Part shown: positions 3,777 through 5,449 of the stretch, one piece after another
Numbering within the stretch: position 1 is the stretch's first letter
How the letters are laid out: each line of letters starts with the position of its first letter
Assembly (NCBI GenBank): GCA_003697085.1
Contig: RFFU01000136.1
Coordinates: forward strand, 1-9,185
Origin: Candidatus Hydrogenedentota bacterium
Lineage (GTDB): Bacteria; UBA8481; J006
Reading direction: 5' to 3'
Length of the DNA stretch: 9,185 nt
Position numbers and translations under genes: made by a program
Notes under the pieces: generated by a model
Told to the model about the DNA's origin: nothing
The model's database searches: none
What the model saw: the letters and a program-made list of their open reading frames with translations, nothing else

Positions 3777-4723
3777 AGAAAAAAAATCGGGACACATTGG
3801 AAACGGAGCAGACTTCGGCGCCGGGCGAACGGATCCAGAATTGGCTGATTCTTACGGCGATTCTAGCGGTTTACTCGTTGGTAGGGGGAAGTGGGAAAGC
3901 GGAGGGCGCTGTAAGGAGTTTGCCCGTGGAACGGATCGCGAATTACGGCGTTATTGTTTCGCCGATCCTCTTGATTCTGTCCGGAATGCTTTTCCGGCTT
4001 TGGCGGAGAAGGTGTTCCAAAGAGAAGAGGGAATCCCCGCGGAGAGCGACGGCGATCGGTTCCTTGCGCCCGGCCGGATTGCTGGAGGCCTTCGGTGCGG
4101 GGATCATCGCCTTGGGATTTCTCCGGCTCCTTCCCGGCGCCCATTCCTCAACTGCGTCTCTGGGGGCCGCTCTTGGTTTGACCGCTCTTCTTCTACAAAA
4201 TCGCGCGGGTGTAAGCCTTCGGATCCTGCCGCCGGAAAAAGGGGAGACGGTATCGGATCTTCTTGCGGTCGTTCTTGCCGCTTCGATCCTCCTGGGGGCA
4301 TTGAGTCTGGGAATTCTCCTGATGAAGGCAGCGATTTTCGAGAAGACGGCTCTGCCCGTCTTTCGTTCCGTCTGGGCTCCTCGCAAACTGTGTTGGGAGT
4401 GGTTGTTATCGATCGTGGTCGTTCCCCTTCTCGAGGAGGTTGTTTTTCGGGCGGGGGTTTTAGGCGTGTTGTACGGAGCGATACGGCCGTATTGGGGGCG
4501 AATGGCTTCCCCCGTGGCGATTCTCTTTTCGGCCGCCGTCTTTTCTTTTCTCCATTTCCAGCCGGAAATCTTCTGGGCACGCTTCCTTGCCGGAATCGCA
4601 TTAGGGGCGCTTTACGTCTTTTCCGGAAGGCTCCTTGCTCCCTGGCTCCTTCATTCGCTGATGAATTTCTCGATCACCTTTCTTCCGTTCCTTCTCGAAA
4701 AAGGTGTCATTCTTACAATTTGA
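3770..4723 (+). CDS. CPBP-family intramembrane metalloprotease (Abi/CAAX-like)
   Basis: The product is a 317-residue polytopic membrane protein. The chosen start, ATG 3770, follows GGGGAGG (3754-3760) at 9 nt. Longer in-frame starts would run inside the divergent gene. The N terminus is basic and polar (MGKKKNRDTLETEQ), followed by hydrophobic segments at about 24-40, 56-77, 104-122, 130-144, 162-188, 209-236, 246-262, 268-288 and 290-312. The family signature is complete: EEVVFR (222-227, catalytic Glu pair and Arg), FLHF (260-263, His262) and HSLMN (295-299, His295 and Asn299). These are the conserved motifs of CPBP/Rce1-type glutamic intramembrane proteases. Bacterial members cleave prenylated or other membrane substrates, or are linked to bacteriocin self-immunity; the substrate here is unknown. 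The divergent exported SH3 protein is a conceivable partner, but this is only context. A repeat-rich tract follows and no clear terminator is seen. Confidence 0.85.
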   Translation: MGKKKNRDTLETEQTSAPGERIQNWLILTAILAVYSLVGGSGKAEGAVRSLPVERIANYGVIVSPILLILSGMLFRLWRRRCSKEKRESPRRATAIGSLRPAGLLEAFGAGIIALGFLRLLPGAHSSTASLGAALGLTALLLQNRAGVSLRILPPEKGETVSDLLAVVLAASILLGALSLGILLMKAAIFEKTALPVFRSVWAPRKLCWEWLLSIVVVPLLEEVVFRAGVLGVLYGAIRPYWGRMASPVAILFSAAVFSFLHFQPEIFWARFLAGIALGALYVFSGRLLAPWLLHSLMNFSITFLPFLLEKGVILTI

Positions 4724-4750
4724 CAGTTTCGGCGGACACGGAAGGGAAGG

Positions 4751-4782
4751 AACCACGGAACACACGGAATGGCACGAAAAGG
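4751..4782 (+). repeat. Repeat A, copy 1
   Basis: A 32-nt unit beginning AACCACGGAACACACGGA and ending CACGAAAAGG. It shares the core GGAACACACGGA exactly with the copies at 4848 and 5033. Confidence 0.8.
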
Positions 4783-4788
4783 GGATTT

Positions 4789-4828
4789 GCCACAGAGGCG
4801 CAGAGACACAGAGAGAAAGGAAAAAAGG
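4789..4828 (+). repeat. Repeat B, ACAGAGGCGCAGAGACACAG unit
   Basis: A single copy in this window, built from CAGAG/CACAG words and running into an A/G-only tail (GAGAGAAAGGAAAAAAGG). The internal CAGAGGCGCAGAGACACAGAG is periodic. It sits between A1 and A2, as one module of the mosaic. I recall near-identical units being dispersed in other bacterial genomes, which a search would have to confirm. Confidence 0.6.
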
Positions 4829-4847
4829 TGAGGAGGGGGGGAGAGGG

Positions 4848-4879
4848 AACCGCGGAACACACGGAGCACACGAAAAAGG
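4848..4879 (+). repeat. Repeat A, copy 2
   Basis: The unit starts AACCGCGGAACACACGGAG. It differs from copy 1 at the fifth base (G for A) and in the middle, where GCACA replaces TGGCA, and it ends CGAAAAAGG. Confidence 0.8.
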
Positions 4880-4883
4880 AAAG

Positions 4884-4915
4884 GAAAAAATCAAAATCCA
4901 AAATGCAAAAGGAAA
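4884..4915 (+). repeat. AT-rich CAAAATCCAAAATGCAAAA unit
   Basis: Three tandem variants of an eight-to-nine-base word (TCAAAATC, CAAAATG, CAAAAGG) form a short A-rich tandem repeat, unlike the GC-rich surroundings. Its CAAAAG word also occurs in the D units (GGCAAAAGGCAA), so the two may be related. Confidence 0.5.
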
Positions 4916-4936
4916 GAGAGAAAAGGAAATGGGAAG

Positions 4937-4956
4937 CGCGGACACACTTGTCTGCG
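4937..4956. repeat. Small hairpin unit around ACACTTGT
   Basis: CGCGGACA (4937-4944) and TGTCTGCG (4949-4956) are complementary except for one G-T pair and enclose the 4-nt loop CACT. The stem is compact and REP-like, and it is not followed by a T run, so it is not an evident terminator. Confidence 0.5.
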
Positions 4957-4994
4957 AAGAAACGGCCCGGGTTTCCGAGCGCAATCGGCTAGAA

Positions 4995-5032
4995 GACGAA
5001 GAACGGTAAACGAAAAACGGTAAACGAAGAAG
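4995..5032 (+). repeat. Repeat C, copy 1: tandem AACGGTAAACGAA
   Basis: Two adjacent units, AACGGTAAACGAA and AACGGTAAACGAA, preceded by GACGAAG and followed directly by repeat A copy 3. The same words recur at 5200-5231 and, inverted, at 5131-5162. Confidence 0.75.
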
Positions 5033-5064
5033 AACCACGGAACACACGGAATGCACGGAAAGGG
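5033..5064 (+). repeat. Repeat A, copy 3
   Basis: AACCACGGAACACACGGAAT is identical to copy 1 over these first 20 bases; only the 3' part (GCACGGAAAGGG) differs, by a small indel and substitutions. Confidence 0.8.
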
Positions 5065-5069
5065 ATGGT

Positions 5070-5122
5070 AAGGGCAAAGGCAAGGGCGGGGAGGGCAAAG
5101 GCAAAAGGCGAAAGGGGAAAAG
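5070..5122 (+). repeat. Repeat D, copy 1: GGCAAAGGCAAGGG tract
   Basis: Tandem six-to-seven-base words of the form (A)GGGCAAA, GGCAAGG and GGCAAAA, ending GGCGAAAGGGGAAAAG. The tract contains no T apart from its edges. It matches the D tracts at 5262-5330 and 5382-5410. Confidence 0.65.
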
Positions 5123-5130
5123 TGATGTTC

Positions 5131-5162
5131 GTTCATCGTTTATCGCCCACCGTTTAACGTTT
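5131..5162 (-). repeat. Repeat C, inverted copy
   Basis: Thirty-two bases starting GTTCATCGTTTATCG and ending CGTTTAACGTTT match the reverse complement of 5200-5231 at 24 of 32 positions by hand alignment without gaps. It is the only unit in the tract lying in the opposite orientation. Confidence 0.65.
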
Positions 5163-5199
5163 GAGCCTTGATTTCTGCCGCTCAACGTGCCGTAGCGAA

Positions 5200-5231
5200 A
5201 AACGAATAACGGTGGACGAACAACGGTAAAC
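5200..5231 (+). repeat. Repeat C, copy 3
   Basis: Contains AACGGTGGACGAA and CAACGGTAAACGA, variants of the unit at 4995-5032. Together with the inverted copy 37 nt upstream it could form an imperfect long hairpin. Confidence 0.7.
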
Positions 5232-5239
5232 GAGGAAAT

Positions 5240-5268
5240 CCACCGAAGACGCGGAAAAAGAGAAAGGC
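5240..5268 (+). repeat. A-like unit, CCACCGAAGACGCGG
   Basis: Begins CCACCGAAGACGCGGAAAAAG, a diverged relative of repeat A (CCACGGAACACACGGAA) with the same spacing of the CCAC and CGGAA words, and runs straight into repeat D copy 2. Confidence 0.5.
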
Positions 5269-5330
5269 AAAAGTCAAAAGGCAAAAGGCAAGGGGAAAAA
5301 AGAAGGGGAGGTGCAAGGGCAAGGACAGGG
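5262..5330 (+). repeat. Repeat D, copy 2
   Basis: AGGCAAAAGTCAAAAGGC followed by AAAAGGCAAGGGG, then a run of purines and GGGCAAGGACAGGG. It is the longest of the D tracts, and nearly all bases are A, G or C on the plus strand. Confidence 0.65.
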
Positions 5331-5344
5331 CAGGAGCGAGGCCA

Positions 5345-5385
5345 ACGTAGGGGCGCCCCCTGAGCGCTGCCGGAATAGAAGGCGC
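5345..5385. repeat. GC-rich palindrome GGGGCGCCCC and flank
   Basis: GGGGCGCCCC at 5350-5359 is a perfect 10-bp palindrome, closely followed by AGCGCT (5363-5368). TAGGGGCG-type words also recur in intergenic repeats of other bacteria, from memory. No T tract follows, so termination is not indicated. Confidence 0.4.
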
Positions 5386-5410
5386 AAGGAAAGGGGCAAA
5401 GGCACGGGGG
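5382..5410 (+). repeat. Repeat D, copy 3
   Basis: A short tract with GCAAGGAAAGGGGCAAAGGC, related to the two longer D tracts. It is the last repeat unit before the his operon leader. Confidence 0.5.
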
Positions 5411-5449
5411 AAGGACGAGGGCCGGGGGAGCGTGGTTCGTATCGCGTTC

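Follow-up and report, generated by a model that had tools for sequence, protein, structure and literature searches.

A polar, composite repeat element beside the histidine genes of a Hydrogenedentota bacterium

The repeat-rich DNA that adjoins the histidine genes represents a single copy of a non-coding dispersed element, polar and composite, which is present dozens of times across the genome and behaves as if copied in blocks and then worn. We found it in a window of 9,185 nt (the whole stretch of DNA that was analyzed), which is one contig (C35) of a 145-contig, 3.2 Mb assembly. The copy number of unit A, and the exact-pattern counts for modules K and D, refer to the whole genome. The statistics on module order and on islands refer to a 727 kb subset, chosen from contigs with matches to unit A, so coverage and density are biased upward.

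Parts of the island

A first-pass annotation of this DNA had described a mosaic of short repeats at 4735-5410. In that interval, 77 positions begin a repeated 10-mer; in 300 shuffles that kept the dinucleotide content, the mean was 6.0 and the maximum was 28. The repeats are as described, but the island starts earlier, with module Z (AAAAGGTGTCATTCTTACAATTTGACAGTTTC, 4699-4731). This is the terminal inverted repeat that brackets the only Y1 transposase gene of the genome, here as a solo copy, and it also provides the final codons and the stop of a CPBP gene. (All features are on the + strand unless noted.) Next come the first copy of unit A (4750-4782), with CACGGAA heptamers iterated at a period of about 9 nt, which forms the left edge of the composite element; unit B (4785-4828), whose CACAGAG and CGCAGAG iterates vary this heptamer design; and a second copy of A (4847-4879). 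A D-type tract of heptamers follows (AAAATCC / AAAATGC / AAAAGG, 4883-4930), then module F, a dispersed hairpin (GCGCGGACACACTTGTCTGCGAA, 4933-4962), the direct arm of unit C (heptamers ACGGTAA / ACGAAAA, 4996-5031), a third copy of A (5032-5064), and E and D tracts (GGGCAAAGGCAAG / GGCAAAAGG, 5070-5122). The core GGAACACACGGA is present in each of A copies 1-3.

The C element at 5126-5235 consists of iterated heptamers in two inverted arms, at 5126-5162 (- strand) and 5196-5235 (+ strand), around a loop of about 35-40 nt, and has a DNA fold z of -2.8. Possibly, this inverted pair is a nested insertion. Beyond it are a degenerate fourth copy of A (5238-5258), a D tract (5260-5305), and a degenerate E tract (GGCAAGG, 5303-5415). 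The pattern matched at 5263-5287 in the D tract has 15 further exact matches across the whole genome. Within the degenerate E tract, GTAGGGGCGCCCC at 5349-5361 may be a worn G module, which is a tentative reading from inspecting the sequence.

The first-pass annotation had correctly placed units A, B, and C (direct and inverted) and the D/E tracts, and had noted that all but one unit share an orientation; the exception is the inverted arm of C. It had allowed for a little unique DNA between units, but the seemingly unique gap at 4930-4962 is also occupied, by hairpin F, which it had missed.

A fixed order of modules across the genome

The pattern for unit A (CCACGGAACACACGGA, up to 2 mismatches) has 206 copies in the 3.2 Mb genome, while the reversed control has 1. 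The units are indeed dispersed, and their neighbors are again units of the same set. By searching the 727 kb for over-represented 12-mers, with no prior models, we found modules beyond those first described: Z, F, G, H, I, J, and K. F, J, and K have 34, 23, and 35 copies in the 727 kb (reversed controls, 0). All three have an arm-loop-arm shape with differing stems and carry GGAGCGC as a common foot. The G module is rarer and begins with GTAG.

When islands are oriented by A, the modules run (Z)-A-D-F, followed by C-A-D or by G/H-J-K. Among islands that hold both modules, A precedes D in 31 and follows it in none; D precedes F by 25:0, and A precedes F by 21:1. F lies on the same strand as A in all cases (27:0) and D in nearly all (68:3). 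None of the 24 islands with several A units has them in mixed orientation. Alignment of the islands to each other yields multi-module blocks, 150-390 nt long and 75-88% identical, and 1407 of 1582 island-island matches have the same orientation. For the window, the alignments to other islands cover 161-335 nt, with 66-74% identity. Sequence information is near zero immediately to the left of A and rises sharply at A (36 islands). Other genomes (127 loci) and genome G128 (discussed below) show the same sharp left edge. The fixed order and polarity, together with the multi-module blocks, imply that one composite element spread, rather than independent families inserting at random.

The islands are also oriented relative to GC skew, which we used as a proxy for the direction of replication. 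The orientation agrees with the sign of the local skew, measured outside the islands, for 30 of 37 A islands (p = 0.0002) and for 23 of 29 copies of F (p = 0.002), p-values that are optimistic because the islands are partly copies of each other and not fully independent. J has no such bias. Single A units in other phyla show a weaker tendency in the same direction (35/52, p = 0.018), and in G128 the agreement (13/19) is not significant.

Module Z and the Y1 transposase gene

The source genome has a single gene from PF01797 (Y1, IS200-like; E = 1e-7). It scores 46 bits against the NCBIfam model for REP-associated tyrosine transposases (REP_Tyr_transpos), which is under the cut-off of 80. Copies of Z in inverted orientation lie at either end of the gene (L102:868-1911, - strand), at L102:838-864 and 1890-1916 (G000:C64). 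About 15 further solo copies of Z are found in about 750 kb. Z borders just 4 of 34 A islands, at the left edge (the island in the window is one of these), so Z is not a marker of the whole element. The Y1 gene has Z alone at its flanks, and none of F, J, and K. Z also reads into adjoining genes: it makes up the C-terminus of the ABC transporter ATPase frame beside the Y1 gene (L102) and, in the window, that of the CPBP protease.

For the C-terminal half of the Y1 protein, a Pfam search with a limit as loose as E = 10 gave no match to a DnaA_C or HTH-like domain or to any other, and a resemblance to such a domain is seen only by eye. This C-terminal domain has no sequence relative in the PDB.

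PF01797 is present in 23 of 25 genomes with A, as compared to 59 of 97 sampled genomes (p = 0.003), but genomes with A tend to be larger, which is a confounder. Two genomes (G264 and the genome of L118) contain A and no detectable Y1 gene, so Y1 is not strictly required. IS200/IS605 enzymes target and insert into the lagging-strand template (PMC6006769), which would fit the strand bias of the islands. We infer that the Y1 enzyme might move more than Z. In the genome of Nitrosomonas halophila (G390, with locus L114), many identical 34-residue pieces of the C-terminus of a Y1 transposase lie at contig ends; these probably reflect an IS200-like element that breaks the assembly.

Turnover of unit A within a genus

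We compared G128 to its congener G264. At up to 2 mismatches, about 165 A units are present in G128, for which the reversed control gives 15, and nine in G264, for which it gives 3. Behind the A head, G128 carries purine-rich arrays, the repeat unit of which is 7-11 nt long and varies among loci. These arrays (at L294, L296, L302, L304, L306, L308, L313, and L321-L323) share the conserved head GAGTCCACGGAAAACACGGAA and often lie right after a stop codon. Such locus-specific arrays are a natural system for studying how arrays grow.

At six orthologous sites with flanks that are 84-97% identical, G264 lacks A at four and is rearranged at one. At the sixth, both genomes have A, and the array in G128 has exactly one additional 9-nt unit. 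At these six sites, which are rearranged, neither a target-site duplication nor a precise empty site is evident; the intergenic DNA appears to be replaced, not cleanly interrupted. Thus, the comparison shows gain or loss of A and unit-wise change, rather than clean insertion with target duplication. At two pairs of loci (L298/L340 and L306/L342), intergenic DNA was replaced wholesale while the flanking genes are about 92-97% identical, and one of these sites has a tandem repeat of about 66 nt with A inside the unit.

Unit A in other genomes

The first-pass annotation mentioned similar units in unrelated environmental bacteria. This holds for A, but the set does not travel together: near A in 117 loci of other genomes, the source genome's other modules are essentially absent. 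A stricter, triple-A pattern matches at least 117 stretches of named genomes. These include Planctomycetota, Kiritimatiellae, Lentisphaeria, Verrucomicrobia, Hydrogenedentota, Latescibacteria, Riflebacteria, and Sumerlaeota; the Desulfobacterota Desulfobacter latus and Desulforhopalus vacuolatus; Gammaproteobacteria (Wenzhouxiangella, Halochromatium, and Sedimenticola), Nitrosomonas halophila, and Alphaproteobacteria; and, among the archaea, Methanosarcina. In methanogen archaea (L105, L113, and L151), A units have in common an extended left flank (ACGTAAATATTTACACTTACTTTATAACC), which makes A a component of a larger repeated element there.

The distribution is patchy. The exact A core is found in 8 of 385 other sampled genomes (control, 0), mostly in 1-2 copies but with 41 in G128. 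G001 is the only relative from the same order in our sample (the remaining sampled genomes share only the domain), and it lacks unit A. Hairpin K is absent from 172 other genomes. Long exact patterns for units C, D, and F had no match in viral contigs. Collections of plasmids, phages, and E. coli had no match to the A element or to the island, so these collections do not support a plasmid or phage carrier. It is possible that A spread horizontally between species. What the data show is patchiness, not transfer, and the alternative is that A is old and was mostly lost.

In other genomes, A usually has an inverted partner within 250 nt (70/125 versus 2 in the control), whereas none of 92 units in the source genome does. 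In itself, unit A is not a perfect hairpin. The inverted arms in other genomes are imperfect and about 30 nt long: the heptamers pair, and the spacers between them vary freely. When we searched near A for 7-mers that are iterated three times with unequal spacers, we found, besides A itself, mostly heptamers of the type CRCRRAN; block shuffles gave none. Unit B of the window is an iterate of this type. In viral contigs, inverted partners accompany 24% of matches for CACGAAT, 43% for CGCAGAG, 33% for CACAGAG, and 51% for A, versus 3% for the reversed control. The viral-contig matches for the first three heptamers are also in non-coding settings more often than in the control. The reversed heptamer AAGGCAC also has many iterated matches in viral contigs, which are largely coding and form inverted pairs in 3% of cases (versus 24-51%), so we did not take iteration alone as evidence.

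These results lead us to suggest, tentatively and with the odds leaning slightly against us, that A and B belong to a mobile non-coding superfamily of bacteria and archaea. Its members would consist of at least three iterated CRCRRAN heptamers, usually in two inverted arms. They would be sporadic across phyla, with over 100 copies in a few genomes, and would be moved by machinery that is tied to the replication fork.

Unit D has a distribution of its own. In an unrelated complete genome, G048, which carries HIP1-like GCGATCGC sites that are typical of cyanobacteria, there are 13 exact matches to the 25-nt D pattern. This places D with the heptameric repeats (STRR) that are known from cyanobacteria. 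At two loci in G048, D tracts and their inverted partners adjoin a GTAGGGGC-type palindrome, much as D adjoins G in the source genome. Heptameric D tracts with inverted partners around this type of palindrome were seen at L742, L744, and L746.

How the islands may have arisen

Our best explanation, to which we assign a probability of roughly 50%, is that the polar, composite dispersed family to which the island belongs is propagated by block copying through single-stranded DNA at the replication fork, with Y1 acting on the hairpins and slippage acting in the tracts. Under this explanation, the elements would be non-autonomous, and blocks would reach new intergenic sites by copying. Among the modules, the hairpins (F, J, K, and C) would be substrates for an HUH Y1 transposase (of the TIRYT or RAYT type). 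The leading candidate for the agent is this enzyme, whose terminal repeat Z borders several islands. Points that weigh against the explanation are the missing target-site duplications and precise empty sites, the few islands bordered by Z, the flanks of the Y1 gene without F, J, or K, the two A-bearing genomes in which no Y1 gene was detected, and the shape of A, which is no perfect hairpin and lacks its inverted arm in the source genome. The tracts with units of 7-9 nt would lengthen and shorten in place through slippage, and the mosaic look would be due to later rearrangement and decay of the copies.

Perhaps there was no transposition at all: a short seed at each intergenic site could expand and rearrange by slippage and unequal recombination, and occasional gene conversion could spread blocks. 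This is what one might conclude from the G128 arrays, in which one A head precedes units of 7-11 nt that are specific to each locus, from the difference of exactly one 9-nt unit at an orthologous site, and from heptameric tracts such as D, which are typical products of slippage. But growth in place does not explain why the same module order is found at many unlinked sites, why blocks of up to 390 nt are shared, why there is a sharp left edge, why orientation is tied to GC skew, or why palindromic modules lack tandem structure. We consider it unlikely, though it deserves to be taken seriously.

A reverse transcriptase or another template-directed copying enzyme could, in principle, write the units. 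Near-identical heptamers that are iterated behind a polar head, with a variable tail, have this look, as do the diverse tracts that follow a conserved head in the unrelated genus of G128. Yet the spacers between heptamers vary freely, which is not expected for the product of a fixed template, so we give this idea little credence. The first-pass annotation had mentioned template-based tract expansion; expansion by units has partial support from the 9-nt difference in that genus, and the fixed template does not fit.

The first-pass annotation's other suggestion, that short elements repeatedly and independently inserted into a tolerated site, must contend with the fixed order and polarity (A before D 31:0, D before F 25:0) and with the blocks that share the junctions between modules. 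The modules are unlike one another, and K, J, and Z are also found on their own, as separate elements would be. Still, the module order contradicts this as the main process, and we consider it very unlikely that several unrelated small elements assembled independently at this site.

It is similarly improbable that selection for a function, rather than parasitic spread, maintains the islands. The function might be a bidirectional terminator, or hairpins at the ends of genes that stabilize mRNA. Islands are enriched between convergent genes (19/70 versus 79/543, p = 0.014, from crude gene calls), as such a function would predict, but 15 of the 70 lie between divergent genes. In the window, the terminator signal is not above chance (3 found versus 2.0 expected), and a search of the window against Rfam gave no match. 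Furthermore, A is gained and lost rapidly at orthologous sites in G128 and G264.

Finally, the island is almost certainly not a decayed gene: open frames do span it, but they have no match to Pfam or NCBIfam families, the dispersed repeats account for the sequence, and the related his operon of G001 has just about 93 nt at the corresponding position, with no island. (The upstream gene in G001 differs, so its his operon does not offer a clean empty site.) The long open frames across the island (4704-5009 and 3841-4992, both on the + strand) encode low-complexity peptides such as TEHTE and ATEAQRHRE. Frames like these are likely a source of spurious protein annotations, and islands account for the low-complexity false proteins that are predicted over such regions.

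Comparison with known systems

CRISPR arrays, with a constant repeat and unique spacers of constant length, do not resemble the island, whose units are unlike each other and irregularly spaced; the first-pass annotation was right on this point. It had also set MITEs aside because it saw no terminal inverted repeats, an argument that fails: the C element is an inverted pair, and A forms inverted pairs elsewhere in 70 of 125 cases. In most other genomes, A is MITE-like in being short, with imperfect inverted arms of about 30 nt and a sharp end. Unlike for MITEs, no target-site duplication is evident at the six G128/G264 sites, which are rearranged, no autonomous partner with the same ends was found, and A in the source genome has no inverted arm (0/92).

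The heptanucleotide D tracts resemble the STRR repeats of cyanobacteria: they are intergenic tandem heptamers, (AAAGGCA)n, with a period of 7. But here D belongs, as a single module, to an ordered composite, and A and B have periods of 8-10 nt with variable spacers instead of exact heptamers.

REP, BIME, and REPIN sequences, with their RAYT transposases, have more in common with the islands. Both involve short intergenic palindromes in high copy and in mosaic clusters. Palindromes of 20-40 nt with these properties occur here (F, J, and K, with 34, 23, and 35 copies in the 727 kb chosen for A), the genome has one gene for a Y1-family transposase, and the G module starts with GTAG. On the other hand, the foot of F, J, and K is GGAGCGC, not GTAG or CGTC; the islands are polar, with many different modules in a fixed order; the Y1 gene is flanked by Z and not by the island palindromes; and an island is mostly heptamer tract, not palindrome.

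In TIRtrons, a Y1 gene is bracketed by inverted terminal repeats (PMC3733652). The TIRtrons, or TIRYT, of that study are probably subclass 2.1 in PMC6006769. The Y1 gene within inverted copies of Z, together with the dispersed solo copies of Z, matches this arrangement. However, the motif GGGGWSAS is a feature of the majority of TIRtron terminal repeats (PMC3733652), and Z reads AAGGTGTCATTC, without that motif. Any DnaA_C or HTH domain in the C-terminal half of the Y1 protein is below Pfam's thresholds. The likeness to TIRtrons holds for module Z alone, not for the composite.

We searched the open literature by motif and by description. We found no account of these sequences; the motifs led only to unrelated medical papers, and the description only to REP, RAYT, and TIRYT. 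The composite appears to be a small mobile DNA of a type that is almost undescribed so far. If this is correct, then phyla as distant as Planctomycetota, Proteobacteria, and Methanosarcina have in common short non-coding repeats of one class, alike in heptamer code and inverted architecture. Genera like that of G128 and G264 allow gain, loss, and change of units to be tracked site by site. And the question that REP and RAYT pose, of how repeats without genes multiply and persist, would extend to far more genomes.
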